From contig CM070910.1 in assembly GCA_036417435.1 (NCBI GenBank), positions 81,142,784 to 81,206,783 of the forward strand: a stretch of DNA of 64,000 nucleotides, given 5' to 3'. Positions 3,212-64,000 of the stretch are shown here, in pieces. The stretch is from Inia geoffrensis. Taxonomy: Eukaryota > Chordata > Mammalia > Artiodactyla > Iniidae. The notes below the pieces were generated by a model. It saw nothing but the letters and a program-made list of their open reading frames with translations, had not been told where the DNA came from and ran no database searches. A program made the translations under genes and the position numbers. Position 1 is the first letter of the stretch. Every line of letters begins with the position of its first letter.

Positions 3212-3609
3212 GACTTCATTGTAGTGCGGATTTCCATTGCAGGCTTGCTTGGTTGGCCAAAAAGGGCGTATGCGTTTTTTCCTGAATATATTCAGGAAAA
3301 AACGTATACGCGCTTTTTGGCCAAGTGCATCACTGTCGAACTGCTGCCTCTTTTCCTACGCTTTCAGAGCAATTCTTATCTACCACCTGATATCTGGTTT
3401 CTGCAATTCTGCGTCACATTCAAGTCCTCTTCACAGAATTCCTTCAATAAATTTTTTGATGATAGGGGTCATTTGAAACTCTGCAGGATTGTGAGTTACA
3501 GTGACAAAAATCTCCTTTTCTCAACTCGCTTTCTTGTGAGCTGACCGCAAACCTGAAGAATTGCTTCATGCCCTAATCTCGTTCCGGTATGGCACGCTGA
3601 GCCTTTGGT
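1875..3609 (+). repeat. Satellite monomer b (1,735 bp)
   Basis: First third equals m1 of the HOR and the rest resembles m2, so this is a mosaic join at about 2316. Palindrome 3253-3324 has two mismatches. It has an extra EcoRI site at 3436 (CAGAATTCC) not seen in other monomers. Confidence 0.92.
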
Positions 3610-5344
3610 GAATTCTTCTTCCTGTGGGGAAATCAGAGTTCAATGTGCCTGTCCAAACACATCGAGTTAGCCGCCCATTGGTTCTCCTTATTCCTGTTCA
3701 TCTTCCACGGAAATTGCAAACTGTGCCAAACAAGAGGTCAAAGGCACTGACTCTCCAAGTGGGGAGAATGTTAATATCGCATCTGGATTGGCAAACTCCA
3801 TTATCACGGTGCGAAAATGGCGATGAGTTTTAGAAATTTTGCCTGATCACTTCGTGGACCATATTCTGGGTTTTCCATGCATATTTTAGCTGAAGGATAA
3901 ATCCCTGAAACGTGGAGATTTGTGACCCGTGGAAACGGAACCATGCACCATTACCTCAAACGGTCTGCATTCCCTCACCAATAGTATCAGCCCCAAGTGT
4001 CCAGTCTTATCTCTCACACAGCTGTGGATGTAGAGGTGGTAAATCCAAGATTCCTTACAAGCCCTAAAGGACTTATTTAAGAATTTCTCTCTATTTCACA
4101 GTCCTTGTGTTTTCTTTTTCAAATTTATTCTTATAAGGGGATTTTGCTTATTTACACTGCTGTGTGTACGCCGCTGTACACAAATGATTTTCTTATGGAG
4201 ACCTATAAATGTATGGGTTTTAAGTTTATTCATACTCAGGTATATTCCTAGGTTTTGAATACGGGGTGTTAAGTCCATTTGGTTGAGCAAGGAGTAGGTC
4301 TTGTCTAATATATATTTGGCTTATGGAATGGTATCTGTCCTAATGTCAACCTCTGGTTCTATACAGCCTCCCCACTCTCCTTTCCCCTTAAGCAAGCATA
4401 AGTTTCTTTTGTAAATGTGAGACTCCGTTGTGTTTTGTAATGCAGTTCATGAGTAGCCGTGTTTACATTCCCGGTATTAGTGTTATCTTATGATGTTTCT
4501 TTTTCTGTGTGCCTTATTTCACTTAGAATCATCGTAAGTAAATCCACTCATTATGCTGCTACTGGTCTGTGACCGTTGATTTCATTGCTGAGTGATATTC
4601 CATTGTAGGGATGTACCACAACTTCTATATCCATTTTTCTCTTTCTGGGCTATTGAAGTTGTACCATAGTCAAGGTTCCCGTACACAGAGAAGCCCCAAA
4701 CATTGGTGTGGCTGTGTCTTTTCATTTAAATTTTCCGAACCTATAGCACCATAAGTGGAAGTGCCCTAGGCTCTCTAGCTTGTTTTTTTCTTTGTTCCAA
4801 GAAACACCCTCCACTTCTCCCGAGTGGCTGTTGGCAATTTACATCCCGCCCATCAGAATAACAAGGCTGACGGTTCTGAATGGCCTGTCCTGCCTCGCTG
4901 GATTTTACACTTTTTTCGGAGGGCCCTTTTGATTGGTGTTAAGTGATACTTCATTGTAGTGCGGATTTCCATTGCAGGCTTGCTTGGTTGGCCAAAAAGG
5001 GCGTGTGCGTTTTTTCCTGAATATATTCAGGAAAAAACGCATACGCCCTTTTTGGCCAAGTGCATCACTGACGTACTGCTGCCTCTTTTCCTACGATTTC
5101 AGAGCAATTCTTATCTACCACCTGATATCTGGTTTCTGCAATTCTGCTTCGCGTTCAAGTCCTCTTCACAGCCTTCCTTCAATAAATTTTTGGATGATAG
5201 GCGTCATTTGGAACTCTGCAGGATTGTAAGTTACAGTGCCAAAAGTCTCCTTTTCTCAACTCGCTTTCTTGTGAGCTGACCGCAAACCCGAAGAATTGAT
5301 TCAGGCCCTAATCTCGTTCCCGTATGGCACGCTAAGCCTTTGGT
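3610..5344 (+). repeat. Satellite monomer c (1,735 bp), holds the left HOR junction
   Basis: Start resembles m3 (CTGTGGGGAAATC), and the tail from 4380 resembles m9, including the four-T GTCTTTTCATT that makes it one base short. Near-identity with HOR copy 2 begins at 4880. Palindrome 4988-5059 has one mismatch. Confidence 0.92.
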
Positions 5345-5844
5345 GAATTCTTCTTCCTGTAGAGAAATCAGAGTTCAATGTGCCTGTCCAAACACATCGA
5401 GTTAGCCGCTCATTGGTTCTCCTTATTCCTGTTAATCTTCCACCGAAATTGCAAAGTGTGCTAAACAAGAGGTCAAAGGCACTGACTCTCCAAGTGGGGA
5501 GAACGTTAATATCGCATCTGGAACTGCCAACTCCATTATCACGGGGCGAAAATGGCGATGAGTTTTAGAAATTTTGCCTGATCACTTCGTGGACCATATT
5601 CTGGGTTTTCCATGCATATTTTACCTAAAGGATAAATCCCTGAAACGTGGAGATTTGGGAACCGTGGAATTGGAACCATGCACCATTACCTCAAACGGTC
5701 TGCATTCCCTCACCAATAGTATCAGCCCCAAGTGTCCAGTCTTATCTCTCACACAGCTGTGGATGTACAGGTGGTAAATCCAATAATCCTTACAAGCCCT
5801 GAAGGAATTATTTAAGAATTTCTCTCTATTTCACAGTCCTTGTG

Positions 5845-6723
5845 TTTTCTTTTTCAAATTTATTTTTATAAGGGGATTTTGCTTATTTACACTGCTGTGC
5901 GTATGCTGCTGTATACAAATGATTTTCTTATGGAGACCTATAAATGTATAGGTTTTAAGTTTATTCATAGTCAGGTATATTCCTAGGTTTTGAATACGGG
6001 GTGTTGAGTCCATTTGGTTGAACAAGGAGTAGGTCTTGTCTAATATATATTTGGCTTATGGAATGGTATCTGTCCTAATGTCAACCTCTGGTTCTATGCA
6101 GACTCCCCACTCTCCTTTCCCCTTAAGCAAGCATACGTTTCTTTTGTAAATGTGAGTCTCTGTTGTGTTTTCTAATGCAGTTCATGCATAGCCGTGTTTA
6201 CACTCCTGGTATTAGTGATATCTGATGATGTTTCTTTTTCTGTGTGCCTTATTTCACTTAGAATCATCGTAACTAAATCCACTCATTATGCTGCTACTGG
6301 TCTGTTGCCATTGATTTCATTGTTGAGTGATATTCCATTGTAGGGATGTACCACAACTTCTATATCCATTTTTCTCTTTCTGGGCTATTGAAGTTCTACC
6401 ATAGTCAAGGTTCCCGTACACAGAGCAGCCCCAAACTTTGGTGTGGCTGTGTCTTTTTCAATTAAATTTTCCGAATCTATTGCACCAAAACTGGAAGTGA
6501 CCTAGGCTCTCTAGCTTGTTTTTTCCTTTGTTCCTGTTAACACCATCCACTTCTCCAGAGTGGATTTTGGCACTTTACATTCCGCCCATCAGCATAACAA
6601 GGCTGCAGGTTCTCCATGGCCTGTCCTGCCTCTCTGGATTTTACACTTTTTCCGGACGGCCCTTTTGATGGGTGGGAAGTGAGACTTCATTGTAGTGTTG
6701 ATTTCCATTGCAGGCCTTCTTGG
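5845..6723 (-). mobile_element. Antisense LINE-1 3' UTR / 3' end, representative copy (m1)
   Basis: On the minus strand this reads toward an L1 3' end. The plus strand starts with the T-rich complement of the tail (CAAATTTATTTTTATA), then the L1 3' UTR: CTGCTGTATACAAATGATT, TGTGAGTCTCTG, TAGTGATATCTGATGATG, TTCCATTGTAGGGATGTACC and AGAGTGGATTTTGGCACTTT, ending in GTGGGAAGTGAGACTTCATTGTAG. These align in order with the cetartiodactyl L1 3' region as I know it (for example ATTCCATTGTATATATGTACC and GGTGTGAGGTGATACCTCAT). The same segment occurs in every monomer, 881 to 1 bases before each palindrome. It is degenerate and non-coding. Confidence 0.82.
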
Positions 6724-6795
6724 TTGGCCAAAAAGGGCGTATGCGTTTTTTCCTGAATATATTCAGGAAAAAACGCATACGCCCTTTTTGTCCAA
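6724..6795. mobile_element. 72-bp palindromic mariner-type inverted repeat, representative copy (m1)
   Basis: Two 36-base arms meet without a spacer at TGAATATATTCA. Outer ends read TTGGCCAAAAAGGGCG and CGCCCTTTTTGGCCAA, here with one arm mismatch. The termini resemble the TTGGCCAAAAAGTTCG ends of a mariner-derived miniature element that I recall as common in ruminants and relatives. It sits inside the L1 fragment, so it would be a later insertion captured when the satellite formed. No clear TA duplication remains. The mariner assignment is inference; the palindrome is direct. Confidence 0.72.
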
Positions 6796-7110
6796 GTACA
6801 TAACTGTCGAACTGCTGCCTCTTTTCCTCCGCTTTCAGAGCAATTCTTATCTACCACCTGATATCTGGTTTCTGCAATTCTGCGTCGCGTTCAAGTCCTC
6901 TTCACAGCCTTTCTTCAATAAATTTTTGGATGATAGGGGTCATTTGGAACTCTGCAGGATTGTGAGTTACAGTGCCAAAAGTCTCCTTTTCTCAACTCGC
7001 TTTCTTGTCAGCTGACCGCAAACCCGAAGAATTGCTTCAGGCCCTAATCTCGTTCCGGTATGGCACGCTGAGCCTTTGGTGAATTCTTCTTCCTGTTGGG
7101 AAATCAGAGT
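6796..7110 (-). mobile_element. Probable continuation of antisense L1 (ORF2 end), representative copy
   Basis: After the palindrome, the plus strand shows weaker but ordered similarity to the antisense end of L1 ORF2. TTCAAGTCCTCTTCACAG resembles TTTAGGTCTTCTGCCCA. CTCGTTCCGGTATGG with GAGCCTTTGGTG resembles TCTTGTTTATGG with CCTTTGCTGTG. Order and spacing fit an L1 split by the palindrome. Divergence is large and no ORF2 reading frame survives. Confidence 0.5.
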
Positions 7111-8813
7111 TCAATGTGCCTGTCCAAACACATCGAGTTAGCCGCTCATTGGTTCTCATTCCTGTTCATCTTCCACGGAAATTGCAAACTGTGCCAAACA
7201 AGAGGTCAAAGGCACTGACTCTCCAAGTGGGGAGAACGTTAATATCACATCTGGAACGGCAAACTCCATTATCACGGTGCGAAAATGGCGATGAGTTTTA
7301 GAAATTTTGCCTGATCACTTCGTGGACCATATTCTGGGTTTTCCATGCATATTTTTGCTGAAGGATAAATCCCTGAAACGTGGAGATTTGGGACCCGTGG
7401 AAATGGAACCATGCACCATTACCTCAAACGGTCTGCATTCCCTCACCAATAGTATCAGCCCCAAGTGTCCAGTCTTATCTCTCACACAGCTGTGGATGTA
7501 GAGGTGGTAAATCCAAGATTTCTCGCAAGACCTCAAGGACTTATTTAAGAATTTCTCTCTATTTCACAGTCCTTGTGTTTTCTTTTTCAAATTTATTTTT
7601 ATAAGGGGATTTTGCTTATTTACACTGCTGTGTGTACGCCGCTGTACACAAATGATTTTCTTATGGAGACCTATAAATGTATGGGTTTTAAGTTTTTTCA
7701 TACTCAGCTATATTCCTAGGTTTTGAATACGGGGTGTTAAGCCCATTTGGTTGAGCAAGGAGTAGGTCTTGTCTAATATATATTTGGCTTATGGAATGGT
7801 ATCTGTCCTAATGTCAACCTCTGGTTCTATACAGCCTCCCCACTCCCCTTTCCCCTTAAGCAAGCATAAGTTTCTTTTGTAAATGTGAGACTCCGTTTTG
7901 TTTTGTAATGCAGTTCATGAGTAGCCGTGTTTACATTCCCGGTATTAGTGATATCTTATGATGTTTCTTTTTCTGTGTGCCTTATTTCACTTAGAATCCT
8001 CGTAACTAAATCCACTCATTATGCTGCTACTGGTCTGTGGCCATTGATTTCATTGTTGAGTGATATTCCATTGTAGGGATGTACCACAACTTCTATATCC
8101 ATGTTTCTCTTTCTGGGCTATTGAAGTTGTACCATAGTCAAGGTTCCCGTACACAGAACAGCCCCAAACTTTGGTGTGGCTGTGTCTTTTTCTTTTAAAT
8201 TATCCGAATCTATAGCACCATAACTGGAAGTGCCCTAGGCTCTCTAGCTTGGTTTTTTCTTTGTTCCAGGAAACACCATCCACTTCTCCAGTGTGGCTGT
8301 TGGCAATTTACAACCCGCCCATTAGCATAACAAGGCTGACGGTTCTGAATGGCCTGTCCTGCCTCGCTGGATTTTACACTTTTTTCGGACGGCCCTTTTG
8401 ATTGGTGTGAAGTGAGACTTCATTGTAGTGCGGATTTCCATTGCAGGCTTGCTTGGTTGGCCAAAAAGGGCGTATGCGTTTTTTCCTGAATATATTCAGG
8501 AAAAAACGTATACGCGCTTTTTGGCCAAGTGCATCACTGTCGAACTGCTGCCTCTTTTCCTACGCTTTCAGAGCAATTCTTATCTACCATCTGATATCTG
8601 GTTTCTGCAATTCTGCGTCACGTTCAAGTCCTCTTCACAGCCTTCCTTCAATAAATTTTTGGATGATAGGCGTCATTTGGAACTCTGCAGGATTGTGAGT
8701 TACAGTGCCAAAAGTCTCCTTTTCTCAACTCGCTTTCTTGTGAGCTGACCGCAAACCCGAAGAATTGATTCAGGCCCTAATCTCGTTCCCGTATGGCACG
8801 CTGAGCCTTTGGT
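7081..8813 (+). repeat. Satellite monomer m2 (1,733 bp)
   Basis: A 3-bp deletion (GGTTCTCATTCC for GGTTCTCCTTATTCC) near 7157 marks this monomer and is repeated in m2'. Palindrome 8457-8528 has two mismatches (right arm TATACGCGC). Confidence 0.93.
7111..7575. repeat. Unassigned block of the monomer, representative copy (m1/m2)
   Basis: About 465 bases between the probable L1 ORF2 end and the next L1 3' end, from the GTGCCTGTCCAAACACATCG area to TTTAAGAATTTCTCTC. I recognise no L1, SINE, LTR or tRNA-derived motif in it. It has several CpG-containing stretches (ATCACGGTGCGAAAATGGCG, ACTTCGTGGACC). It may be very diverged L1 or an independent sequence captured when the monomer formed. Confidence 0.5.
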
Positions 8814-10549
8814 GAATTCTTCTTCCTGTGGGGAAATCAGAGTTCAATGTGCCTGTCCAAACACATCGAGTTAGCCGCTCATTGGTTCTCCTTATTCCTG
8901 TTAATCTTCCACCGAAATTGCAAAGTGTGCTAAACAAGAGGTCAAAGGCACTGACTCTCCAAGTGGGGAGAACGTTAATATCGCATCTGGAACTGCCAAC
9001 TCCATTATCACGGGGCGAAAATGGCGATGAGTTTTAGAAATTTTGCCTGATCACTTGGTGGACCATATTCTGGGTTTTCCATGCATATTTTACCTAAAGG
9101 ATAAATCCCTGAAACGTGGAGATTTGGGAACCGTGGAATTGGAACCATGCACCATTACCTCAAACGGTCTGCATTCCCTCACCAATAGTATCAGCCCCAA
9201 GTGTCCAGTCTTATCTCTCACACAGCTGTGGATGTACAGGTGGTAAATCCAATATTCCTTACAAGCACTGAAGGACTTATTTAAGAATTTCTCTCTATTT
9301 CACAGTCCTTGTGTTTTCTTTTTCAAATTTATTTTTATAAGGGGATTTTGCTTATTTACACTGCTGTGTGTATGCTGCTGTATACAAATGATTTTCTTAT
9401 GGAGACCTATAAACGTATGGGTTTTAAGTTTATTCATAGTCAGGTATATTCCTAGGTTTTGAATACGGGGTGTTGAGTCCATTTGGTTGAGCAAGGAGTA
9501 GGTCTTGTCTAATATATATTTGGCTTATGGAATGGTATCTGTCCTAATGTCAACCTCTGGTTCTATGCAGACTCCCCACTCTCCTTTCCCCTTAAGCAAG
9601 CATACGTTTCTTTTGTAAATGTGAGTCTCTGTTGTGTTTTCTAATGCAGTTCATGCATAGCCGTGTTTACACTCCTGGTATTAGTGATATCTGATGATGT
9701 TTCTTTTTCTGTGTGCCTTATTTCACTTAGAATCATCGTTACTAAATCCACTCATTATGCTGCTACTGGTCTGTTGCCATTGATTTCATTGTTGAGTGAT
9801 ATTCCATTGTAGGGATGTACCACAACTTCTATATCCATTTTTCTCTTTCTGGGCTATTGAAGTTCTACCATAGTCAAGGTTCCCGTACACAGAGCAGCCC
9901 CAAACTTTGGTGTGGCTGTGTCTTTTTCAATTAAATTTTCCGAATCTATTGCACCAAAATTGGAAGTGACCTAGGCTCTCTAGCTTGTTTTTTTCTTTGT
10001 TCCTGTTAACACCATCCACTTCTCCAGAGTGGATTTTGGCACTTTACATTCCGCCCATCAGCATAACAAGGCTGCAGGTTCTCCATGGCCTGTCCTGCCT
10101 CTCTGGATTTTACACTTTTTCCGGACGGCCCTTTTGATCGGTGGGAAGTGAGACTTCATTGTAGTGTTGATTTCCATTGCAGGCCTTCTTGGTTGGCCAA
10201 AAAGGGCGTATGTGTTTTTTCCTGAATATATTCAGGAAAAAACGCATACGCCCTTTTTGTCCAAGTGCATCACTGTCGAACTGCTGCCTCTTTTCCTCCG
10301 CTTTCAGATCAATTCTTATCTACCACCTGATATCTGGTTTCCGCAATTCTGCGTCACGTTCAAGTCCTCTTCACAGGCATCATTCAATAAATTTTTGGAT
10401 GATAGGCGTCATTTGGAACTCTGCAGGATTGTGAGTTACAGTGCCAAAAATCTCCATTTCTCAACTCGCTTTCTCGTGAGCTGACCGCAAAGCTGAAGAA
10501 TTGCCTCAGGCCCTAATCTCGTTCCGGTATGGCACGCTGAGCCTTTGGT
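8814..10549 (+). repeat. Satellite monomer m3 (1,736 bp)
   Basis: Start class CTGTGGGGAAATC with GTTAATCTTCCACCG. Palindrome 10193-10264 has two mismatches (TATGTG; TTGTCCAA). Pairs with m7. Confidence 0.93.
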
Positions 10550-12285
10550 GAATTCTTCTTCCTGTAGGGAAATCAGAGTTCAATGTGCCCGTCCAAACAC
10601 ATCGAGTTAGCCGCTCATTGGTTCTCCTTATTCCTGTTCATCTCCCACGGAAATTACAAACCGTGCCAAACAAGAGGTCAAAGGCACTGACTCTCCAAGT
10701 GGAGAGAATGTTAATATCGCATGTGGAACGGCAAACTCCAGTATCACGGGGCGAAAATGGCGATGAGTTTTAGAAATTTTGCCTGATCACTTCGTGGACC
10801 ATATTCTGGGCTTTCCATGCATATTTTAGCTGAAGGATAAATCCCTTAAACGTGGAGATATGGGACCCGTGGAATGCGAACCATGCACCATTACCTCAAA
10901 GGGTCTGCATTCCCTCACCAATAGTATCAGCCCCAAGTGTCCAGTCTTATCTCTCCCACAGCTGTGGATGTAGAGGTGGTAAATCCAATATTCCTTACAA
11001 GCCCTGAAGGACTTATTTAAGAATTTCTCTCTATTTCACAGTCCTTGTATTTTCTTTTTCAAATTTATTTTTATAAGGGGATTTTGCTTATTTACACTGC
11101 TGTGTGTACGCCGCTGTACACAAATGATTTTCTTATGGAGACCTATAAATGTATGGGTTTTAAGTTTTTTCATACTCAGCTATATTCCTAGGTTTTGAAT
11201 ACGGGGTGTTAAGTCCATTTGGTTGAGCAAGGAGTAGGTCTTGTCTAATATATATTTGGCTTATGGAATGGTATCTGTCCTAATGTCAACCTCTGGTTCT
11301 ATACAGCCTCCCCACTCCCCTTTCCCCTTAAGCAAGCATAAGTTTCTTTTGTAAATGTGAGACTCCGTTTTGTTTTGTAATGCAGTTCATGAGTAGCCGT
11401 GTTTACATTCCCGGTATTAGTGATATCTTATGATGTTTCTTTTTCTGTGTGCCTTATTTCACTTAGAATCCTCGTAACTAAATCCACTCATTATGCTGCT
11501 ACTGGTCTGTGGCCATTGATTTCATTGTTGAGTGATATTCCATTGTAGGGATGTACCACAACTTCTATATCCAGTTTTCTCTTTCTGGGCTATTGAAGTT
11601 GTACCATAGTCAAGGTTCCCGTACACAGAGCAGCCCCAAACTTTGGTGTGGCTGTGTCTTTTTCATTTAAATTTTCCGAATCTATAGCACCATAAGTGGA
11701 AGTGCCCTAGGCTCTCTAGCGTGGTTTTTTCTTTGTTCCAGAAAAAAACATCCACGTCTCCAGAGTGGCTGTTGGCAATTTACATCCTGCCCATCAGCAT
11801 AACAATGATGACGGTTCTGAATGGCCTGTCCTGCCTCGCTGGATTTTACACTTTTTTCGGACGGCTCTTTTTATCGGTGCAAAGTGAGACTTCATTGTAG
11901 TGCGGATTTCCATTGCAGGCTTGCATGGTTGGCCAAAAAGTGTGTATGTGTTTTTTCCTGAATATATTCAGGAAAAAATGTATACGCGCTTTTTGGCCAA
12001 GTGCATCACTGTCGAACTGCTGCCACTTTTCCTAGGCTTTCAGAGCAATTCTTATCTACCAACTGATATCTGGTTTCTGCAATTCTGCGTCGAGTTCAAG
12101 TCCTCTTCCCAGCCTTCCTTCAATAAATTTTTGGATGATAGGCGTCATTTGGAACTGTGCAGGATTGTGAGTTACAGTGCCAAAAATCTCCTTTTCTCAA
12201 CTCGCTTTCTTGTGAGCTGACCGCAAACCCGAAGAATTGCTTCAGGCCCTAATCTCGTTCCGGTATGGCACGCTGAGCCTTTGGT
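10550..12285 (+). repeat. Satellite monomer m4 (1,736 bp)
   Basis: Most decayed palindrome type: 11929-12000 has five mismatches (left GTGTGTATGTG, right ATGTATACGCGC). Also marked by CCAGAAAAAAACATCCACG. Pairs with m8. Confidence 0.93.
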
Positions 12286-14021
12286 GAATTCTTCTTCCTG
12301 TAGGGAAATCAGAGTTCAATGTGCCTGTCCAAACACATCGAGTTAGCCGCTCATTGGTTCTCCTTATTCCTGTTCATCTTCCACGGAAATTGCAAACTGT
12401 GCCAAACAAGAGGTCAAAGGCAGTGACTCTCCAAGTGGGGAGAACGTTAATATCGCATCTGGAACGGCAAACTCCATTATCACGGGGCGAAAAAGGCGAT
12501 GAGTTTTAGAAATTTTGCCTGATCACTTCGTGGACCACATTCGGGGTTTTCCATGCATATTTTAGCTGAAGGATAAATCCCTGGAACGTGGAGATTTGGG
12601 ACCCGTGGAATTGGAACCATGCACCATTACCTCAAACGGTCTGCATTCCCTCACCAATAGTATCAGCCCCAAGTGTCCAGTCTTATCTCTCACACAGCTG
12701 TGGATGTACAGGTGGTAAATCCAATATTCCTTACAAGCCCTGAAGGACTTATTTAAGAATTTCTCTCTATTTCACAGTCCTTGTGTTTTCTTTTTCAAAT
12801 TTATTTTTATAACGGGATTTTGCTTATTTACACTGCTGTGCGTATGCTGCTGTATACAAATGATTTTCTTATGGAGACCTATAAATGTATGGGTTTTAAG
12901 TTTATTCATAGTCAGGTATATTCCTAGGTTTTGAATACGGGGTGTTGAGTCCATTTGGTTGAACAAGGAGTAGGTCTTGTCTAATATATATTTGGCTTAT
13001 GGAATGGTATCTGTCCTAATGTCAACCTCTGGTTCTATGCAGACTCCCCACTCTCCTTTCCCCTTAAGCAAGCATACGTTTCTTTTGTAAATGTGAGTCT
13101 CTGTTGTGTTTTCTAATGCAGTTCATGCATAGCCGTGTTTACACTCCTGGTATTAGTGATATCTGATGATGTTTCTTTTTCTGTGTGCCTTATTTCACTT
13201 AGAATCATCGTAACTAAATCCACTCATTATGCTGCTACTGGTCTGTTGCCATTGATTTCATTGTTGAGTGATATTCCATTGTAGGGATGTACCACAACTT
13301 CTATATCCATTTTTCTCTTTCTGGGCTATTGAAGTTCTACCATAGTCAAGGTTCCCGTACACAGAGCAGCCCCAAACTTTGGTGTGGCTGTGTCTTTTTC
13401 AATTAAATTTTCCGAATCTATTGCACCAAACCTGGAAGTGACCTAGGCTCTCTAGCTTGTTTTTTCCTTTGTTCCTGTTAACACCATCCACTTCTCCAGA
13501 GTGGATTTTGGCACTTTACATTCCGCCCATCAGCATAACAAGGCTGCAGGTTCTCCATGGCCTGTCCTGCCTCTCTGGATTTTACACTTTTTCCGGACGG
13601 CCCTTTTGATGGGTGGGAAGTGAGACTTCATTGTAGTGTTGATTTCCATTGCAGGCCTTCTTGGTTGGCCAAAAAGGGCGTATGCGTTTTTTCCTGAATA
13701 TATTCAGGAAAAAACGCATATGCCCTTTTTGTCCAAGTACATCACTGTCGAACTGCTGCCTCTTTTCCTCCGCTTTCAGAGCAATTCTTATCTACCACCT
13801 GATATCTGGTTTCTGCAATTCTGCGTCGCGTTCAAGTCCTCTTCACAGCCTTTCTTCAATAAATTTTTGGATGATAGGGGTCATTTGGAACTCTGCAGGA
13901 TTGTGAGTTACAGTGCCAAAAGTCTCCTTTTCTCAACTCGCTTTCTTGTGAGCTGACCGCAAACCCGAAGAATTGCTTCAGGCCCTAATCTCGTTCCGGT
14001 ATGGCACGCTGAGCCTTTGGT
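12286..14021 (+). repeat. Satellite monomer m5 (1,736 bp)
   Basis: Marked by GGCGAAAAAGGCGATG and AGGCAGTGACTC. Palindrome 13665-13736 has two mismatches. Contains the A/B sub-repeat junction near 12604. Confidence 0.93.
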
Positions 14022-15757
14022 GAATTCTTCTTCCTGTTGGGAAATCAGAGTTCAATGTGCCTGTCCAAACACATCGAGTTAGCCGCTCATTGGTTCTCCT
14101 TATTCCTGTTCATCTTCCACGGAAATTGCAAACTGTGCCAAACAAGAGGTCAAAGGCACTGACTCTCCAAGTGGGGAGAACGTTAATATCGCATCTGGAA
14201 CGGCAAACTCCATTATCACGGTGCAAAAATGGCGATGAGTTTTAGAAATTTTGCCTGATCACTTCGTGGACCATATTCTGGGTTTTCCATGCATATTTTT
14301 GCTGAAGGATAAATCCCTGAAACGTGGAGATTTGGGACCCGTGGAAATGGAACCATGCACCATTACCTCAAACGGTCTGCATTCCCTCACCAATAGTATC
14401 AGCCCCAAGTATCCAGTCTTATCTCTCACACAGCTGTGGATGTAGAGGTGGTAAATCCAAGATTTCTCGCAAGACCTCAAGGACTTATTTAAGAATTTCT
14501 CTCTATTTCACAGTCCTTGTGTTTTCTTTTTCAAATTTATTTTTATAAGGGGATTTTGCTTATTTACACTGCTGTGTGTACGCCGCTGTACACAAATGAT
14601 TTTCTTATGGAGACCTATAAATGTATGGGTTTTAAGTTTTTTCATACTCAGCTATATTCCTAGGTTTTGAATACGGGGTGTTAAGCCCATTTGGTTGAGC
14701 AAGGAGTAGCTCTTGTCTAATATATATTTGGCTTATGGAATGGTATCTGTCCTAATGTCAACCTCTGGTTCTATACAGCCTCCCCACTCCCCTTTCCCCT
14801 TAAGCAAGCATAAGTTTCTTTTGTAAATGTGAGACTCCGTTTTGTTTTGTAATGCAGTTCATGAGTAGCCGTGTTTACATTCCCGGTATTAGTGATATCT
14901 TATGATGTTTCTTTTTCTGTGTGCCTTATTTCACTTAGAATCCTCGTAACTAAATCCACTCATTATGCTGCTACTGGTCTGTGGCCATTGATTTCATTGT
15001 TGAGTGATATTCCATTGTAGGGATGTACCACAACTTCTATATCCATGTTTCTCTTTCTGGGCTATTGAAGTTCTACCATAGTCAAGGTTCCCGTACACAG
15101 AGCAGCCCCAAACTTTGGTGTGGCTGTGTCTTTTTCTTTTAAATTTTCCGAATCTATAGCACCATAAGTGGAAGTGCCCTAGGCTCTCTAGCTTGGTTTT
15201 TTCTTTGTTCCAGGAAACACCATCCACTTCTCCAGTGTGGCTGTTGGCAATTTACAACCCGCCCATTAGCATAACAAGGCTGACGGTTCTGAATGGCCTG
15301 TCCTGCCTCGCTGGATTTTACACTTTTTTCGGACGGCCCTTTTGATTGGTGCGAAGTGAGACTTCATTGTAGTGCGGATTTCCATTGCAGGCTTGCTTGG
15401 TTGGCCAAAAAGGGCGTATGCGTTTTTTCCTGAATATATTCAGGAAAAAACGTATACGCGCTTTTTGGCCAAGTGCATCACTGTTGAACTGCTGCCTCTT
15501 TTCCTACGCTTTCAGAGCAATTCTTATCTACCATCTGATATCTGGTTTCTGCAATTCTGCGTCACGTTCAAGTCCTCTTCACAGCCTTCCTTCAATAAAT
15601 TTTTGGATGATAGGCGTCATTTGGAACTCTGCAGGATTGTGAGTTACAGTGCCAAAAGTCTCCTTTTCTCAACTCGCTTTCTTGTGAGCTGACCGCAAAC
15701 CCGAAGAATTGATTCAGGCCCTAATCTCGTTCCCGTATGGCACGCTGAGCCTTTGGT
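14022..15757 (+). repeat. Satellite monomer m6 (1,736 bp)
   Basis: Holds 14225 a, where copy 2 keeps the CpG (45464 g). Palindrome 15401-15472 has two mismatches. Equivalent of m2 in block B but without the 3-bp loss. Confidence 0.93.
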
Positions 15758-17493
15758 GAATTCTTCTTCATGTAGAGAAATCAGAGTTCAATGTGCCTGT
15801 CCAAACACATCGAGTTAGCCGCTCATTGGTTCTCCTTATTCCTGTTAATCTTCCACCGAAATTGCAAAGTGTGCTAAACAAGAGGTCAAAGGCACTGACT
15901 CTCCAAGTGGGGAGAACGTTAATATCGCATCTGGAACTGCCAACTCCATTATCACGGGGCGAAAATGGTGATGAGTTTTAGAAATTTTGCCTGATCACTT
16001 CGTGGACCATATTCTGGGTTTTCCATGCATATTTTACCTAAAGGATAAATCCCTGAAACGTGGACATTTGGGAACCGTGGAATTGGAACCATGCACCATT
16101 ACCTCAAACGGTCTGCATTCCCTCACCAATAGTATCAGCCCCAAGTGTCCAGTCTTATCTCTCACACAGCTGTGGATATACAGGTGGTAAATCCAATATT
16201 CCTTACAAGCACTGAAGGACTTATTTAAGAATTTCTCTCTATTTCACAGTCCTTGTGTTTTCTTTTTCAAATTTATTTTTATAAGGGGATTTTGCTTATT
16301 TACACTGCTGTGTGTATGCTGCTGTATACAAATGATTTTCTTATGGAGACCTATAAACGTATGGGTTTTAAGTTTATTCATAGTCAGGTATATTCCTAGG
16401 TTTTGAATACGGGGTGTTGAGTCCATTTGGTTGAGCAAGGAGTAGGTCTTGTCTAATATATATTTGGCTTATGGAATGGTATCTGTCCTAATGTCAACCT
16501 CTGGTTCTATGCAGACTCCCCACTCTCCTTTCCCCTTAAGCAAGCATACGTTTCTTTTGTAAATGTGAGTCTCTGTTGTGTTTTCTAATGCAGTTCATGC
16601 ATAGCCGTGTTTACACTCCTGGTATTAGTGATATCTGATGATGTTTCTTTTTCTGTGTGCCTTATTTCACTTAGAATCATCGTAACTAAATCCACTCATT
16701 ATGCTGCTACTGGTCTGTTGCCATTGATTTCATTGTTGAGTGATATTCCATTGTAGGGATGTACCACAACTTCTATATCCATTTTTCTCTTTCTGGGCTA
16801 TTGAAGTTCTACCATAGTCAAGGTTCCCGTACACAGAGCAGCCCCAAAATTTGGTGTGGCTGTGTCTTTTTCAATTAAATTTTCCGAATCTATTGCACCA
16901 AAAGTGGAAGTGACCTAGGCTCTCTAGCTTGTTTTTTTCTTTGTTCCTGTTAACACCATCCACTTCTCCAGAGTGGATTTTGGCACTTTACATTCCGCCC
17001 ATCAGCATAACAAGGCTGCAGGTTCTCCATGGCCAGTCCTGCCTCTCTGGATTTTACACTTTTTCCGGACGGCCCTTTTGATCGGTGGGAAGTGAGACTT
17101 CACTGTAGTGTTGATTTCCATTGCAGGCCTTCTTGGTTGGCCAAAAAGGGCGTATGTGTTTTTTCCTGAATATATTCAGGAAAAAACGCATACGCCCTTT
17201 TTGTCCAAGTGCATCACTGTCGAACTGCTGCCTCTTTTCCTCCGCTTTCAGATCAATTCTTATCTACCACCTGATATCTGGTTTCCGCAATTCTGCGTCG
17301 CGTTCAAGTCCTCTTCACAGGCATCATTCAATAAATTTTTGGATGATAGGCGTCATTTGGAACTCTGCAGGATTGTGAGTTACAGTGCCAAAAATCTCCA
17401 TTTCTCAACTCGCTTTCTCGTGAGCTGACCGCAAAGCTGAAGAATTGCCTCAGGCCCTAATCTCGTTCCGGTATGGCACGCTGAGCCTTTGGT
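15758..17493 (+). repeat. Satellite monomer m7 (1,736 bp)
   Basis: Marked by TTCTTCATGTAGAG and GGACATTTGGG. Palindrome 17137-17208 has two mismatches. Confidence 0.93.
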
Positions 17494-19229
17494 GAATTCT
17501 TCTTCCTGTAGGGAAATCAGAGTTCAATGTGCCCGTCCAAACACATCGAGTTAGCCGCTCATTGGTTCTCCTTATTCCTGTTCATCTCCCATGGAAATTA
17601 CAAACCGTGCCAAACAAGAGGTCAAAGGCACTGACTCTCCAAGTGGAGAGAATGTTAATATCGCATCTGGAACGGCAAACTCCAGTATCACGGGGCGAAA
17701 ATGGCGATGAGTTTTAGAAATTTTGCCTGATCACTTCGTGGACCATATTCTGGGCTTTCCATGCATATTTTAGCTGAAGGATAAATCCCTTAAACGTGGA
17801 GATATGGGACCCGTGGAATGCGAACCATGCACCATTACCTCAAAGGGTCTGCATTCCCTCACCAATAGTATCAGCCCCAAGTGTCCAGTCTTATCTCTCC
17901 CACAGCTGTGGATGTAGAGGTGGTAAATCCAATATTCCTTACCAGCCCTGAAGGACTTATTTAAGAATTTCTCTCTATTTCACAGTCCTTGTATTTTCTT
18001 TTTCAAATTTATTTTTATAAGGGGATTTTGCTTATTTACACTGCTGTGTGTACGCCGCTGTACACAAATGATTTTCTTATGGAGACCTATAAATGTATGG
18101 GTTTTAAGTTTTTTCATACACAGGTATATTCCTAGGTTTTGAATACGGGGTGTTAAGTCCATTTGGTTGAGCAAGGAGTAGGTCTTGTCTAATATATATT
18201 TGGCTTATGGAATGGTATCTGTCCTAATGTCAACCTCTGGTTCTATACAGCCTCCCCACTCCCCTTTCCCCTTAAGCAAGCATAAGTTTCTTTTGTAAAT
18301 GTGAGACTCCGTTTTGTTTTGTAATGCAGTTCATGAGTAGCCGTGTTTACATTCCCGGTATTAGTGATATCCTATGATGTTTCTTTTTCTGTGTGCCTTA
18401 TTTCACTTAGAATCCTCGTAACTAAATCCACTCATTATGCTGCTACTGGTCTGTGGCCATTGATTTCATTGTTGAGTGATATTCCATTGTAGGGATGTAC
18501 CACAACTTCTATATCCAGTTTTCTCTTTCTGGGCTATTGAAGTTGTACCATAGTCAAGGTTCCCGTACACAGAGCAGCCCCAAACTTTGGTGTGGCTGTG
18601 TCTTTTTCATTTAAATTTTCCGAATCTATAGCACCATAAGTGGAAGTGCCCTAGGCTCTCTAGCGTGGTTTTTTCTTTGTTCCAGAAAAAAACATCCACT
18701 TCTCCAGAGTGGCTGTTGGCAATTTACATCCTGCCCATCAGCATAACAATGATGACGGTTCTGAATGGCCTGTCCTGCCTCGCTGGATTTTACACTTTTT
18801 TCGGACGGCTCTTTTTATCGGTGCAAAGTGAGACTTCATTGTAGTGCGGATTTCCATTGCAGGCTTGCATGGTTGGCCAAAAAGTGTGTATGCGTTTTTT
18901 CCTGAATATATTCAGGAAAAAATGTATACGCGCTTTTTGGCCAAGTGCATCACTGTCGAACTGCTGCCACTTTTCCTAGGCTTTCAGAGCAATTCTTATC
19001 TACCAACTGATATCTGGTTTCTGCAATTCTGCGTCGAGTTCAAGTGCTCTTCCCAGCCTTCCTTCAATAAATTTTTGGATGATAGGCGTCATTTGGAACT
19101 GTGCAGGATTGTGAGTTACAGTGCCAAAAATCTCCTTTTCTCAACTCGCTTTCTTGTGAGCTGACCGCAAACCCGAAGAATTGCTTCAGGCCCTAATCTC
19201 GTTCCGGTATGGCACGCTGAGCCTTTGGT
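17494..19229 (+). repeat. Satellite monomer m8 (1,736 bp)
   Basis: Marked by CCCATGGAAATTAC and TCATACACAGG. Palindrome 18873-18944 has four mismatches. Contains 19013 t, changed to a in copy 2. Confidence 0.93.
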
Positions 19230-20964
19230 GAATTCTTCTTCCTGTAGGGAAATCAGAGTTCAATGTGCCTGTCCAAACACATCGAGTTAGCCGCTCATTG
19301 GTTCTCCTTATTCCTGTTCATCTTCCACGGAAATTGCAAACTGTGCCAAACAAGAGGTCAAAGGCACTGACTCTCCAAGTGGGGAGAACGTTAATATCGC
19401 ATCTGGAACGGCAAACTCCATTATCACGGGGCGAAAAAGGCGATGAGTTTTAGAAATTTTGCCTGATCACTTCGTGGACCACATTCGGGGTTTTCCATGC
19501 ATATTTTAGCTGAAGGATAAATCCCTGGAACGTGGAGATTTGGGACCCGTGGAATTGGAACCATGCACCATTACCTCAAACGGTCTGCATTCCCTCACCA
19601 ATAGTATCAGCCCCATGTGTCCAGTCTTATCTCTCCAACAGCTGTGGATGTACAGGTGGTAAATCCAAGATTCCTTACATGCCCTGAAGGACTTACTTAA
19701 GAATTTCTCTCTATTTCACAGTCCTTGTGTTTTCTTTTTCAAATTTATTTTTATAAGGGGATTTTGCTTATTTACACTGCTGTGTGTATGCTGCTGTATA
19801 CAAATGATTTTCTTATGGAGACCTATAAATGTATGGGTTTTAAGTTTATTCATAGTCAGGTATATTCCTAGGTTTTGAATACGGGGTGTTGAGTCCATTT
19901 GGTTGAACAAGGAGTAGGTCTTGTCTAATATATATTTGGCTTATGGAATGGTATCTGTCCTAATGTCAACCTCTGGTTCTATGCAGACTCCCCACTGTCC
20001 TTTCCCCTTAAGCAAGCATAAGTTTCTTTTGTAAATGTGAGACTGTGTTGTGTTTTGTAATGCAGTTCATGAGTAGCCGTGTTTACATTCCCGGTATTAG
20101 TGTTATCTTATGATGTTTCTTTTTCTGTGTGCCTTATTTCACTTAGAATCATCGTAACTAAATCCACTCATTATGCTGCTACTGGTCTGTGGCCATTGAT
20201 TTCATTGTTGAGTGATATTCCATTGTAGGGATGTACCACAACTTCTATATCCATTTTTCTCTTTCTGGGCTATTGAAGTTGTACCATAGTCAAGGTTCCT
20301 GTACACAGAGAAGCCCCAAACATTGGTGTGGCTGTGTCTTTTCATTTAAATTTTCCGAATCTATAGCACCATAAGTGGAAGTGCCCTAGGCTCTCTAGCT
20401 TGTTTTTTTCTTTGTTCCAAGAAACACCCTCCACTTCTCCCGAGTGGCGGTTGGCAATTTACATGCCGCCCATCAGCATAACAAGGCTGACAGTTCTGAA
20501 TGGCCTGTCCTGCCTCGCTGGATTTTACACTTTTATCGGACGGCCCTTTTGATTGGTGCGAAGTGATACTTCATTGTAGTGCGGATTTCCATTGCAGGCT
20601 TGCTTGGTTGGCCAAAAAGGGCGTATGCGTTTTTTCCTGAATATATTCAGGAAAAAACGCATACGCCCTTTTTGGCCAAGTGAATCACTGTCGAACTGCT
20701 GCCTCTTTTCCTACGATTTCAGAGCAATTCTTATCTACCACCTGATATCTGGTTTCTGCAATTCTGCGTCGCGTTCAAGTCCTCTTCACAGCCTTCCTTC
20801 AATAAATTTTTGGATGATAGGCGTCATTTGGAACTCTGCAGGATTGTGAGTTACAGTGTCAAAAGTCTCCTTTTCTCAACTCGCTTTCTTGTGAGCTGAC
20901 CGCAAACCCGAAGAATTGATTCAGGCCCTAATCTCGTTCCCGTATGGCACGCTGAGCCTTTGGT
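19230..20964 (+). repeat. Satellite monomer m9 (1,735 bp)
   Basis: One base short at GTCTTTTCATT. Palindrome 20608-20679 is a perfect 72-bp inverted repeat. Contains two sites that differ in copy 2 (20295, 20901). Confidence 0.93.
20608..20679. mobile_element. Perfect 72-bp palindrome (mariner-type), m9
   Basis: All 36 arm positions pair (TTGGCCAAAAAGGGCGTATG and its complement at the outer ends), with centre TGAATATATTCA. Copied intact at 51847-51918. On either strand the transcript could fold into a hairpin with almost no loop. Confidence 0.88.
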
Positions 20965-22700
20965 GAATTCTTCTTCCTGTAGAGAAATCAGAGTTCAATG
21001 TGCCTGTCCAAACACATCGAGTTAGCCGCTGATTGGTTCTCCTTATTCCTGTTAATCTTCCACCGAAATTGCAAAGTGTGCTAAACAAGAGGTCAAAGGC
21101 ACTGACTCTCCAAGTGGGGAGAACCTTAATATCGCATCTGGAACTGCCAACTCCATTATCACGGGGCGAAAATGGCGATGAGTTTTAGAAATTTTGCCTG
21201 ATCACTTCGTGGACCATATTCGGGGTTTTCCATGCATATTTTACCTAAAGGATAAATCCCTGAAACGTGGAGATATGGGACCCGTGGAATGCGAACCATG
21301 CACCATTACCTCAAAGGGTCTGCATTCCCTCACCAATAGTATCAGCCCCAAGTGTCCAGTCTTATCTCTCCCACAGCTGTGGATGTAGAGGTGGTAAATC
21401 CAATATTCCTTACAAGCCCTGAAGGACTTATTTAAGAATTTCTCTCTATTTCACAGTCCTTGTATTTTCTTTTTCAAATTTATTTTTATAAGGGGATTTT
21501 GCTTATTTACACTGCTGTGTGTACGCCGCTGTACACAAATGATTTTCTTATGGAGACCTATAAATGTATGGGTTTTAAGTTTTTTCATACTCAGCTATAT
21601 TCCTAGGTTTTGAATACGGGGTGTTAAGTCCATTTGGTTGAGCAAGGAGTAGGTCTTGTCTAATATATATTTGGCTTATGGAATGGTATCTGTCCTAATG
21701 TCAACCTCTGGTTCTATACAGCCTCCCCACTCCCCTTTCCCCTTAAGCAAGCATAAGTTTCTTTTGTAAATGTGAGACTCCGTTTTGTTTTGTAATGCTG
21801 TTCATGAGTAGCCGTGTTTACATTCCCGGTATTAGTGATATCTTATGATGTTTCTTTTTCTGTGTGCCTTATTTCACTTAGAATCCTCGTAACTAAATCC
21901 ACTCATTATGCTGCTACTGGTCTGTGGCCATTGATTTCATTGTTGAGTGATATTCCATTGTAGGGATGTACCACAACTTCTATATCCAGTTTTCTCTTTC
22001 TGGGCTATTGAAGTTGTACCATAGTCAAGGTTCCCGTACACAGAGCAGCCCCAAACTTTGGTGTGGCTGTGTCTTTTTCATTTAAATTTTCCGAATCTAT
22101 AGCTCCATAAGTGGAAGTGCCCTAGGCTCTCTAGCGTGGTTTTTTCTTTGTTCCAGAAAAAAACATCCACTTCTCCAGAGTGGCTGTTGGCAATTTACAT
22201 CCTGCCCATCAGCATAACAATGATGACGGTTCTGAATGGCCTGTCCTGCCTCGCTGGATTTTACACTTTTTTCGGACGGCTCTTTTTATCGGTGCAAAGT
22301 GAGACTTCATTGTAGTGCGGATGTCCATTGCAGGCTTGCATGGTTGGCCAAAAAGTGTGTATGCGTTTTTTCCTGAATATATTCAGGAAAAAATGTATAC
22401 GCGCTTTTTGGCCAAGTGCATCACTGTCGAACTGCTGCCACTTTTCCTAGGCTTTCAGAGCAATTCTTATCTACCAACTGATATCTGGTTTCTGCAATTC
22501 TGCGTCGAGTTCAAGTCCTCTTCCCAGCCTTCCTTCAATAAATTTTTGGATGATAGGCGTCATTTGGAACTGTGCAGGATTGTGAGTTACAGTGCCAAAA
22601 ATCTCCTTTTCTCAACTCGCTTTCTTGTGAGCTGACCGCAAACCCGAAGAATTGCTTCAGGCCCTAATCTCGTTCCGGTATGGCACGCTGAGCCTTTGGT
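20965..22700 (+). repeat. Satellite monomer m10 (1,736 bp)
   Basis: Holds the C/D dimer junction near 21263. Palindrome 22344-22415 has four mismatches. Marked by GCGGATGTCC before it. Confidence 0.93.
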
Positions 22701-24744
22701 GAATTCTTCTTCCTGTAGGGAAATCAGAGTTCAATGTGCCTGTCCAAACACATCGAGTTAGCCGCTCATTGGTTCTCCTTATTCCTGTTCATCTTCCACG
22801 GAAATTGCAAACTGTGCCAAACAAGAGGTCAAAGGCACTGACTCTCCAAGTGGGGAGAACGTTAATATCGCATCTGGAACGGCAAACTCCATTATCACGG
22901 GGCGAAAAAGGCGATGAGTTTTAGAAATTTTGCCTGATCACTTCGTGGACCACATTCGGGGTTTTCCATGCATATTTTAGCTGAAGGATAAATCCCTGGA
23001 ACGTGGAGATTTGGGACCCGTGGAATTGGAACCATGCACCATTACCTCAAACGGTCTGCATTCCCTCACCAATAGTATCAGCCCCATGTGTCCAGTCTTA
23101 TCTCTCCAACAGCTGTGGATGTACAGGTGGTAAATCCAAGATTCCTTACATGCCCTGAAGGACTTACTTAAGAATTTCTCTCTATTTCACAGTCCTTGTG
23201 TTTTCTTTTTCAAATTTATTTTTATAAGGGGATTTTGCTTATTTACACTGCTGTGTGTATGCTGCTGTATACAAATGATTTTCTTATGGAGACCTATAAA
23301 TGTATGGGTTTTAAGTTTATTCATAGTCAGGTATATTCCTAGGTTTTGAATATGGGGTGTTGAGTCCATTTGGTTGAACAAGGAGTAGGTCTTGTCTAAT
23401 ATATATTTGGCTTATGGAATGGTATCTGTCCTAATGTCAACCTCTGGTTCTATGCAGACTCCCCACTGTCCTTTCCCCTTAAGCAAGCATAAGTTTCTTT
23501 TGTAAATGTGAGACTGTGTTGTGTTTTGTAATGCAGTTCATGAGTAGCCGTGTTTACATTCCCGGTATTAGTGTTATCTTATGATGTTTCTTTTTCTGTG
23601 TGCCTTATTTCACTTAGAATCATCGTAACTAAATCCACTCATTATGCTGCTACTGGTCTGTGGCCATTGATTTCATTGTTGAGTGATATTCCATTGTAGG
23701 GATGTACCACAACTTCTATATCCATTTTTCTCTTTCTGGGCTATTGAAGTTGTACCATAGTCAAGGTTCCTGTACACAGAGAAGCCCCAAACATTGGTGT
23801 GGCTGTGTCTTTTCATTTAAATTTTCCGAATCTATAGCACCATAAGTGGAAGTGCCCTAGGCTCTCTAGCTTGTTTTTTTCTTTGTTCCAAGAAACACCC
23901 TCCACTTCTCCCGAGTGGCGGTTGGCAATTTACATGCCGCCCATCAGCATAACAAGGCTGACAGTTCTGAATGGCCTGTCCTGCCTCGCTGGATTTTACA
24001 CTTTTATCGGACGGCCCTTTTGATTGGTGCGAAGTGATACTTCATTGTAGTGCGGATTTCCATTGCAGGCTTGCTTGGTTGGCCAAAAAGGGCGTATGTG
24101 TTTTTTCCTGAATATATTCAGGAAAAAACGCATACGCCCTTTTTGGCCAAGTGAATCACTGTCGAACTGCTGCCTCTTTTCCTACGATTTCAGAGCAATT
24201 CTTATCTACCACCTGATATCTGGATTCTGCAATTCTGCGTCGCGTTCAAGTCCTCTTCACAGCCTTCCTTCAATAAATTTTTGGATGATAGGCGTCATTT
24301 GGAACTCTGCAGGATTGTGAGTTACAGTGTCAAAAGTCTCCTTTTCTCAACTCGCTTTCTTGTGAGCTGACCGCAAACCCGAAGAATTGATTCAGGCCCT
24401 AATCTCGTTCCCGTATGGCACGCTGAGCCTTTGGTGAATTCTTCTTCCTGTAGAGAAATCAGAGTTCAATGTGCCTGTCCAAACACATCGAGTTAGCCGC
24501 TGATTGGTTCTCCTTATTCCTGTTAATCTTCCACCGAAATTGCAAAGTGTGCTAAACAAGAGGTCAAAGGCACTGACTCTCCAAGTGGGGAGAACCTTAA
24601 TATCGCATCTGGAACTGCCAACTCCATTATCACGGGGCGAAAATGGCGATGAGTTTTAGAAATTTTGCCTGATCACTTCGTGGACCATATTCGGGGTTTT
24701 CCATGCATATTTTACCTAAAGGATAAATCCCTGAAACGTGGAGA
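21263..24744 (+). repeat. Two-monomer sub-repeat, copy D
   Basis: Partner of C. Matching ends at 24745 (GAGATTTGG against GAGATATGG at 21274). One internal difference lies in the palindrome left arm: TATGTG at about 24104 against TATGCG in C. Confidence 0.8.
22701..24435 (+). repeat. Satellite monomer m11 (1,735 bp)
   Basis: Dimer partner of m9. Contains 23353 t (GAATATGGGG), where all compared monomers read GAATACGGGG. Palindrome 24079-24150 has one mismatch. Confidence 0.93.
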
Positions 24745-60881: not shown

Positions 60882-62618
60882 GAATTCTTCTTCCTGTCGG
60901 GAAATCAGAGTTCAATCTGCCTGTCCAAACGCATCGAGTTAGCCCCTCATTTGTTCTCCTTATTCCTGTTCATCTCCCACGGAAATTGCAAACTGTGCCA
61001 AACAAGAGGTGAAAGGCACTGACTCTCCAAGTGGGGAGAATGTTAATATCGCATCTGGAACGGCAAACTCCAGTATCACGGGGCGAAAATGGCGATGAGT
61101 TTTAGAAATTCTGCCTGATCACTTCGTGGACCATATTCTGGGTTTTCCATGCATATTTTAGCTGAAGGATAAATCCCTTAAACGTGGAGATATGGGACCC
61201 GTGGAAAGCGAACCATGCACCATTACCTCAAAGGGTCTGCATTCCCTCACCAATAGTATCAGCCCCAAGTGTCCAGTCTTATCTCTCCCACAGCTGTGGA
61301 TGTAGAGGTGGTAAATCCAAGATTCATCACAAGCCCTGAAGGACTTATTTAAGAATTTCTCTCTATTTCACACTCCTTGTATTTTCTTTTTCAAATTTAT
61401 TTTTATAAGGGGATTTAGCTTATTTACACTGCTGTGTGTATGCTGCTGTACACAAATGATTTTCTTATGGAGACCTATAAATGTATGGGTTTTTAGTTTA
61501 TTCATAGTCAGGTATAATCCTAGGTTTTGAATACGGGGTGTTGAGTCCATTTGGTTGAGCAAGGAGTAGGTCTTGTCTAACATATATTTGGCTTATGAAA
61601 TGGTATCTGTCCTAATGTCAACCTCTGGTTCTATGCAACCTCCACACTCTCCTTTCCCCTTAAGCAAGCATTAGTTTCTTTTGTAAATGTGAGACTATGT
61701 TGTGTTTTGTAATGCAGTTCATGCATAGCCGTGTTTACATTCCCGGTATTAGTGATATCTTATGATGTTTCTTTTTCTGTTTGCCTTGTTTCACTTAGAA
61801 TCATCGTAACTAAATCCACTCATTATGCTGCTACAGGTTTGTTGCCATTGATTTCATTGTTGAGTGATATTCCATTGTAGGGATGTACCACAACTTCTAT
61901 ATCCATTTTTTCTCTTTCTGGGCTATTGAAGTTGTACCATAGTCAAGGTTCCCATAAGCAGAGCAGCCCCAAACTTTGGTGTGGCTCTGTCTTTTTCATT
62001 TAAATTTTCCGAATCTATAGCACCATAAGTGGAAGTGCCCTAGGCTCTCTAGCATGCATTTCTCTTTGTTCCAGGAAACAACAACCACTTCTCCAGAGTG
62101 GCTGTTGGCAATTTACATCCCGCCCATCAGCATAACAAGGCTGACGGTTCTGAATGGCCTGTCCTGCCTCTCTGGATTTTTCACTTTTTTCGGACGGCCC
62201 TTTTGATTGGGGGGAAGTGAGACTTCTTTGTAGTGCGGATTCCCATTGCAGGCTTGCTTGGTTGGCCAAAAAGGGCGTATGCGTTTTTTCCTGAATATAT
62301 TCAGGAAAAAACGCATACGCCCTTTTTGGCCAAGTGCATCACTGTCGAACTGCTGCCTCTTTTCCTATGCTATCAGAGCAATTCTTATCTACCACCTGAT
62401 ATCTGGTTATTGCAATTCTGCGTCGCGTTCAAGTCCTCTTCACAGCCTTCCTTCAATAAATTTATGGATGATAGGCGTCATTTGGATCTCTGCAGGATTG
62501 TGAGTTACAGTGCCAAAAGTCTCCTTTTCTCAACTCGCTTTCTTGTGAGCTGACCGCAAACCCGAAGAATTGCTTCAGGCCCTAATCTCGTTCCGGTATG
62601 GCACGCTGAGCCTTTGGT
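60882..62618 (+). repeat. Satellite monomer m15' (1,737 bp)
   Basis: Keeps the extra T. Palindrome 62262-62333 is perfect. Confidence 0.93.
62262..62333. mobile_element. Perfect 72-bp palindrome, m15'
   Basis: HOR copy 2 counterpart of 31023-31094, with all arm positions paired. Confidence 0.88.
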
Positions 62619-64000
62619 GAATTCTTCTTCCTGTAGGGAAATCAGAGTTCAATGTGCCTGTCCAAACACATCGAGTTAGCCGCTCATTGGTTCTCCTTAT
62701 TCCTGTTCATCTTCCACGGAAATTCCAAACTGTGCCAAACAAGAGGTCAAAAGCAGTGACTCTCCATGTGGGGAGAACGTTAATATCGCATCTGGAACGG
62801 CAAACTCCATTATCATGGGGCGAAAATGGCGATGCGTTTTAGAAATTGTGCCTGATCACTTCGTGGACCATATTCTGGGTTTTCCATGCATATTTTAGCT
62901 GAAGGATAAATCCCTGTAACGTGGAGATTTGGGACCCGTGGAATGGGAACCATGCACCATTACCTCAAAGGGTCTGCATTCCCTCACCAATAGTACAAGC
63001 CCCAAGTGTCCAGTCTCATCTTTCACACAGCTGTGGATGTAGAGGTGGTAAACCCAAGATTCCTCACAAGCCCTCAAGGACTTATTTAAGAATTTCTCTC
63101 TATTTCACAGTCCTTGTGCTTTCTTTTTCAAATTTATTTTTATAAGGGGATTTAGCTTATTTACACTGCTGTGTGTACGCTGCTGTACACAAATGATTTT
63201 CTTATGCAGACCTATAAATGTATGGGTTTTAAGTTTATTCATAGGTATATTCCTAGGTTTTGAATACGGGGTGTTGAGTCCATTTGGTTGAGCGAGGAGT
63301 AGGTCTTGTCTAATATATATTTGGCTTATGGAATGGTATCTGTCCTAATGTCAACCTCTGGTTCTATGCAGACTCCCCACTCTCCTTTCCCCTTAAGCAA
63401 GCATAAGTTTCTTTTGTAAATGTGAGACTCTGTTGTGTTTTGTAATGCAGTTCATGCGTAGCCGTGTTTACATTCCCAGTATTAGTGATATCTGATGATG
63501 TTTCTTTTTCTGTGTGCCTTATTTCACTTAGAATCCTCGTAACTAAATCCACTCATTATGCTGCTACTGCTCTGTGGCCATTGATTTCATTGTTGAGTGA
63601 TATTCCATTGTAGGGATGTACCACAACTTCTATATCCATTTTTCACTTTCTGGGATATTGAAGTTGTACCATAGTCAAGGTTTCCGTACACAGAGCAGCC
63701 CCAAACATTGGTGTGGCTGTGTCTTTTTCATTGAAATGTTCCGAATCTATAGCACCATAAGTGGAAGTGCCCTAGGCTCTCTAGCTTGGTTTTCTCTTTG
63801 TTCCAGGAAACACCATCCACTTCTCCAGAGTGGCTGTTGGCAATTTACATCCCGTCCATCAGCATAACAAGGCTGCCGGTTCTCCATGGCCTGTCCTGCC
63901 TCTCTGGATTTTACACTTTTTTCGGACTGCCCTTTTGATTGGTGGGAAGTGAGACTTCATTGTAGTGCGGATTTCCATTGCAGGCTTGCTTGTTTGGCCA
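62619..64000 (+). repeat. Satellite monomer m16', truncated by window end
   Basis: First 1,382 bases of m16', with the 4-bp loss near 63245 and t at 63540. The window stops at 64000, seven bases into the palindrome that begins at 63994. Confidence 0.93.

Follow-up and report, generated by a model that had tools for sequence, protein, structure and literature searches.

What question does the 64,000-nucleotide stretch of Inia geoffrensis DNA analysed here (contig CM070910.1, positions 81,142,784 to 81,206,783; the window) raise? It is whether a satellite array built from monomers of about 1.7 kb contains a higher-order repeat (HOR), as a near-perfect block with a period of 31,239 bp suggests, and how that block arose. 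The whole window is satellite array, with a G+C content of about 42% (41.1–43.8% in 2-kb steps). Cutting it at a conserved anchor gave 36 complete monomers of 1,731–1,740 bp each, numbered here from the left (m1, m2 and so on), and a truncated final one. The other monomers are 93–99% identical to m1, and monomers are typically 92–97% identical to one another over 1.7 kb. Our reading, to which we give a probability of roughly 0.78, is that 18 part-LINE-1-derived monomers (31,239 bp) are present twice, side by side and in register, with six base differences between the copies, and that the duplication was probably produced by one recent unequal crossover, or by equivalent sister-chromatid repair.

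Extent and edges of the 31,239-bp repeat

The original prediction held that sequence markers keep a constant 31,239-bp offset from 4880/36119 to the end of the window, and that in 27.9 kb the copies share every indel variant and differ by just six substitutions. Ungapped comparison of 4880–32761 with 36119–64000 (27,882 bp) at this offset bore out the statement exactly, returning 6 mismatches and 0 indels. The substitutions, given as copy 1/copy 2, are at 14225/45464 (A/G), 19013/50252 (T/A), 20295/51534 (G/C), 20901/52140 (C/T), 23353/54592 (T/C) and 32301/63540 (A/T), and a divergence of 0.022% (6 differences in 27,882 bp) agrees with the extreme youth proposed for the block. The offset corresponds to 18 monomers arranged head to tail, as the monomer cut confirms. 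Among shared 16-mers it was the most frequent offset (27,792), followed by 1,736 (16,038). The average difference between monomers inside the unit is 5.45% (0.17–7.73% over 153 pairs, four of them below 1%), as opposed to 0.022% between the two copies; given this and the rank of the offset among 16-mers, chance is not an issue. The repeat and its surroundings are laid out as follows.

1–4879: left flank, the same satellite but not a copy of the unit (m1, m2 and most of m3); m1–m3 differ from m19–m21 at 97, 124 and 92 alignment columns, and identity at offset 31,239 is gone left of 4880
4880–36118: copy 1 of the 31,239-bp 18-monomer unit, complete, as defined by the ungapped comparison and the monomer cut
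34709–36441: hybrid monomer m21 across the junction of the two copies; unlike m3 before 36119, and from 36119 the same as m3 from 4880 (column 1415)
36119–64000: copy 2, first 27,882 bases (89.3%); by arithmetic it would end at 67357, beyond the window, if the period holds

The left edge of the repeat was located by comparing m3 with m21. Every one of their differing columns lies left of column 1415 (∼6.5% divergence there), and the mismatches continue up to the base immediately before the switch. Because m3 and m21 are different monomers left of column 1415, position 4880 is a sharp edge. The view thus covers about 4.9 kb of left flank, copy 1 whole and most of copy 2, or 1.89 copies of the unit.

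The block had been predicted to be a higher-order repeat, a label that combines a whole-monomer period, copies far closer to each other than the diverged monomers within them, and a many-copy array. The first two of these three features were found. As to the third, the view shows no more than 1.89 copies, and the repeat has its left end at 4880; the label is only partly supported. For the same two reasons, one tandem duplication accounts for everything seen. A true multi-copy HOR array, in which the 31-kb unit goes on rightward of 64000 in several or many copies and 4880 marks the array edge, is a possible but unlikely alternative. Its appeal lies in the sharp left edge and in a copy 2 that is still running at 64000; human HOR arrays, moreover, grow by such young amplifications, those on chromosomes 11 and 12 being dated to 80–153 and about 13–23 thousand years, respectively (PMC11062924; here and below, cited articles are drawn on in excerpt). 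The visible copies nevertheless stop at 1.89, and a single duplication suffices.

Six differences between the copies and their age

All six sites show the same arrangement: in one copy the base agrees with the other monomers, and in its counterpart it is derived. The derived states are split evenly, with 14225, 23353 and 32301 in copy 1 and 50252, 51534 and 52140 in copy 2, the pattern given by independent mutation after duplication. Five of the six are unique to one row of the monomer alignment, which rules out gene conversion as their origin. The exception is the A at 14225 (m9), which is also present in m17 (27767–29506) and in its second copy, m35; for this site, recurrence of a CpG transition is as likely as a tiny conversion. 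CpG transitions make up half of the differences (3/6), though CpG holds 4.6% of bases (P = 0.0018, post hoc), an enrichment that favours germline change in methylated DNA and disfavours random read error.

These differences also bear on whether the second copy could have been produced by the assembly, with a single 31-kb locus, or its two haplotypes, written twice in tandem. There are just two copies, their 99.98% identity fits the allelic range, and the right-hand part of the ancestral m21, which is outside the view, leaves room for a mis-join within the shared run. The blue whale genome paper adds that long tandem duplication arrays still need special resolving methods (PMC10919930). We nevertheless consider an assembly duplication improbable. 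The differences, three derived in each copy, are spaced so that the largest interval between them is 9,345 bp, and accurate long reads are therefore able to separate the two copies. A hybrid monomer, in register, forms the junction, and its mismatches to m3 run right up to the switch; older 4-monomer and 2-monomer duplications (see below) show the same process at earlier times in this array. The assembly is taken to be correct here.

The divergence between the copies amounts to 2.15e-4 per site (95% range 0.8–4.7e-4). With whale rates assumed, simple arithmetic converts this to ∼209,000 years at the mysticete rate of 5.14e-10 per year (PMC10919930) and to ∼70,000 years at the humpback rate of 1.54e-9 per year (PMC6657726), the Poisson range on both ages extending about two- to threefold in either direction. 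The 18-monomer duplication may therefore be about 70–210 thousand years old, on the order of 100,000. This youth is comparable to that of the recently amplified HORs on human chromosomes 11 and 12, which, however, cover more than 1 Mb (PMC11062924), whereas one extra copy is seen here.

Older duplications and the proposed mechanism

The array contains further near-identical segments, within the unit and in its left flank.

5662–12671: first arm of a nested 4-monomer duplication; partner 12603–19615, running from column 460 to column 528; 44 of 7,041 columns differ (0.62%)
17792–21274: first arm of a nested 2-monomer duplication; partner 21263–24745, running from column 441 to column 452; 11 of 3,498 columns differ (0.31%)
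26241–27518: older near-identical segment in m16; partner in m20, 33182–34459; 10 of 1,279 columns differ (0.78%)
1–1476: m1, in a young single-monomer duplication with m2 in the left flank; partner 1736–3211; 1 of 1,478 columns differs
1471–2313: 843-bp tract matching 4941–5783 exactly, two monomers away, and divergent on both sides

Background divergence around the nested duplications in the 18-mer is 5–6%. Each nested tract equals one period plus a short overlap (12 columns in the 2-mer and 69 columns in the 4-mer). For either tract, the end falls at nearly the same monomer position as the start, the footprint expected of exchange between misaligned homologous monomers. Both duplications are clear and are older than the 18-monomer duplication; neither figured in the original prediction. 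An alternating two-monomer pattern is also seen across m4–m11 (5203–19090), where m4, m6, m8 and m10 share many alleles that are absent from m5, m7, m9 and m11, and vice versa; this pattern is older still than the nested duplications.

These observations suggest how the block could have been made. Identity of 92–97% between monomers would provide long homology in shifted registers, and crossover or repair between shifted monomers would cause whole numbers of monomers to be gained or lost. Exchange between two monomers 18 places apart would produce a whole-monomer period and a hybrid junction monomer and leave no other scar. If such exchange were recursive, with differing step sizes, it would give the nested 4-mer and 2-mer and then the 18-mer, the latest round leaving the biggest near-perfect block. 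We favour unequal exchange since the best-defined events have whole-monomer periods of 18, 4 and 2, and the nested duplications indicate that the process is recurrent with differing step sizes. The underlying mechanism is ordinary, being classic for satellite arrays, and the block is a good, young and well-resolved example of it.

Break-induced replication or strand-invasion synthesis, by which 31 kb would have been copied onto itself with no reciprocal crossover, is a rather unlikely route to the same structure. It has been proposed for human centromeric arrays (PMC11034957), and the conversion-like match between 1471–2313 and 4941–5783 would suit it. Reciprocal exchange is presumed here, but both routes leave the same in-register junction, and the window cannot discriminate between them.

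Several points weigh against a history of one clean unequal exchange. Six differences in 27.9 kb are also plausible as an allelic distance, and alleles of two haplotypes would show the identical CpG pattern. The 2-monomer tract is uneven, with 8 differences in ∼1,290 columns versus 3 in ∼2,184 (hand count; Fisher P = 0.024); it is therefore not the product of one clean event, and further exchange or conversion has likely touched it. The 4-monomer tract came back from the near-identity scan as three pieces, with gaps at columns 220–222 of m5 and 155–161 of m6. The 843-bp tract, whose second location begins ∼60 bases inside the 31-kb unit, looks conversion-like given the divergence on both of its flanks, and exchange would thus not be the sole process at work. 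Finally, what the ancestral m21 carried right of 36119 lies outside the view, which leaves the exchange point delimited from a single side.

The monomer, its relatives and the significance of the array

The original prediction described the satellite as L1-derived. Protein searches of m1, using a translation with X at stops and window coordinates obtained by arithmetic, support this through two collinear matches to LINE-1 (L1) open reading frame 2 (ORF2) protein, next to which lies a palindrome.

998–1201, minus strand: L1 ORF2 C-terminal remnant; phmmer match to 8sxt_A, residues 1206–1274, E = 6.5e-4
1353–1502, minus strand: collinear piece of the L1 ORF2 remnant, upstream on that strand; phmmer match to 9k6g_A, residues 1103–1152, E = 0.0016
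1518–1589: imperfect palindrome of 72 bp; 15 bases separate it from the L1 remnant, on the remnant's upstream side; 36 matches in the window, one per complete monomer

By these matches, the minus strand of m1 carries a decayed LINE-1 ORF2 C-terminus. A remnant of this kind is expected in the remaining monomers as well because of their similarity to m1. The query that matched 8sxt_A also returned two unrelated proteins (E = 1.3 and 1.7). The frames P0003 and P0004 had no match in the PDB, and three translated frames of 800–1300 gave no Pfam family. No RNA family was found in 1–37000 by Rfam at the gathering score, and Tandem Repeats Finder, whose maximum period is 500, found nothing.

In 21 monomers, the arms of the palindrome measure 36–40 bases with 3–6 mismatches; we presume a likeness to mariner-type terminal repeats. 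As a candidate break site the palindrome was rejected. Of the 32 ends of near-identical segments, which are not independent, two (both at column 1542) fall inside palindrome columns 1517–1600; all 32 are spread along the monomer over 19 different bins of 15 bp, and no hotspot is claimed.

The L1 origin of the common cetacean satellite was reportedly recognized by Kapitonov, Holmquist and Jurka in 1998, and the satellite itself is said to have been the work of Arnason, Widegren and co-workers. The excerpted literature describes its monomer as resembling the 3' part of LINE-1 or gives L1 as its source (PMC9659126, PMC6947457, PMC8909793), and a killer whale repeat of 1,579 bp is named in a reference title. 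The array studied here is likely this satellite, in whale or dolphin heterochromatin. The two share a monomer from the 3' end of LINE-1, the match here being limited to ORF2 residues within 1103–1274. The present monomer is 1,731–1,740 bp long, and it was matched to the family by published description, not by sequence alignment. A 20-base exact pattern, searched in genome and viral contig collections, and blastn of 1–3500 against phages and plasmids yielded no relative. According to the original prediction, the unit was not known to have been described. This agrees with the open-access matches listed, among which, in excerpt and with most subscription papers outside the scope, no account of multi-monomer units of the cetacean satellite was found; the satellite as such, on the other hand, has long been known.

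As in primate alpha satellite HORs, diverged neighbouring monomers have been copied as a block, and the copies are far closer to each other than most monomers within them. Human alpha satellite units contain 2–34 monomers of about 170 bp (PMC5615363) and so measure under 6 kb, in contrast to 31.2 kb for the 18 monomers here, of which only 1.89 copies are visible.

Active human centromeres typically contain near-perfect blocks of very young age, and the 31-kb unit might likewise have been selected, e.g., as a kinetochore-forming centromere unit. This explanation is very improbable: neither strand of the window contains an exact CENP-B box core, and only one site within two mismatches is present in the first 1,735 bases. 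A broader proposal is speculative, and we regard it as doubtful: in a whale, a centromere or a block of heterochromatin would be founded on a HOR of 18 monomers and 31 kb, made from a dead LINE-1 tail through a cascade of 2-mers, 4-mers and then the 18-mer. If it were true, the HOR unit would exceed the longest human alpha satellite unit more than 5-fold in bases, and higher-order repeats would depend neither on CENP-B boxes nor on short monomers of nucleosome size.

The array also carries a warning: software for calling centromeres, if tuned to short monomers, may overlook arrays of this kind; for comparison, the telomere-to-telomere finless porpoise paper gives candidate centromere monomers of 99–201 bp (PMC11403816). 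Taken together, satellite turnover can be read from the 64-kb window in nested in-register duplications at 0.02%, 0.3% and 0.6% divergence, and the satellite concerned is likely one shared by cetaceans. Because the monomers are long, junctions can be mapped closely, as the overlaps of 12 and 69 columns illustrate, and the size and rate of unequal exchange could therefore be measured in long-read whale assemblies.

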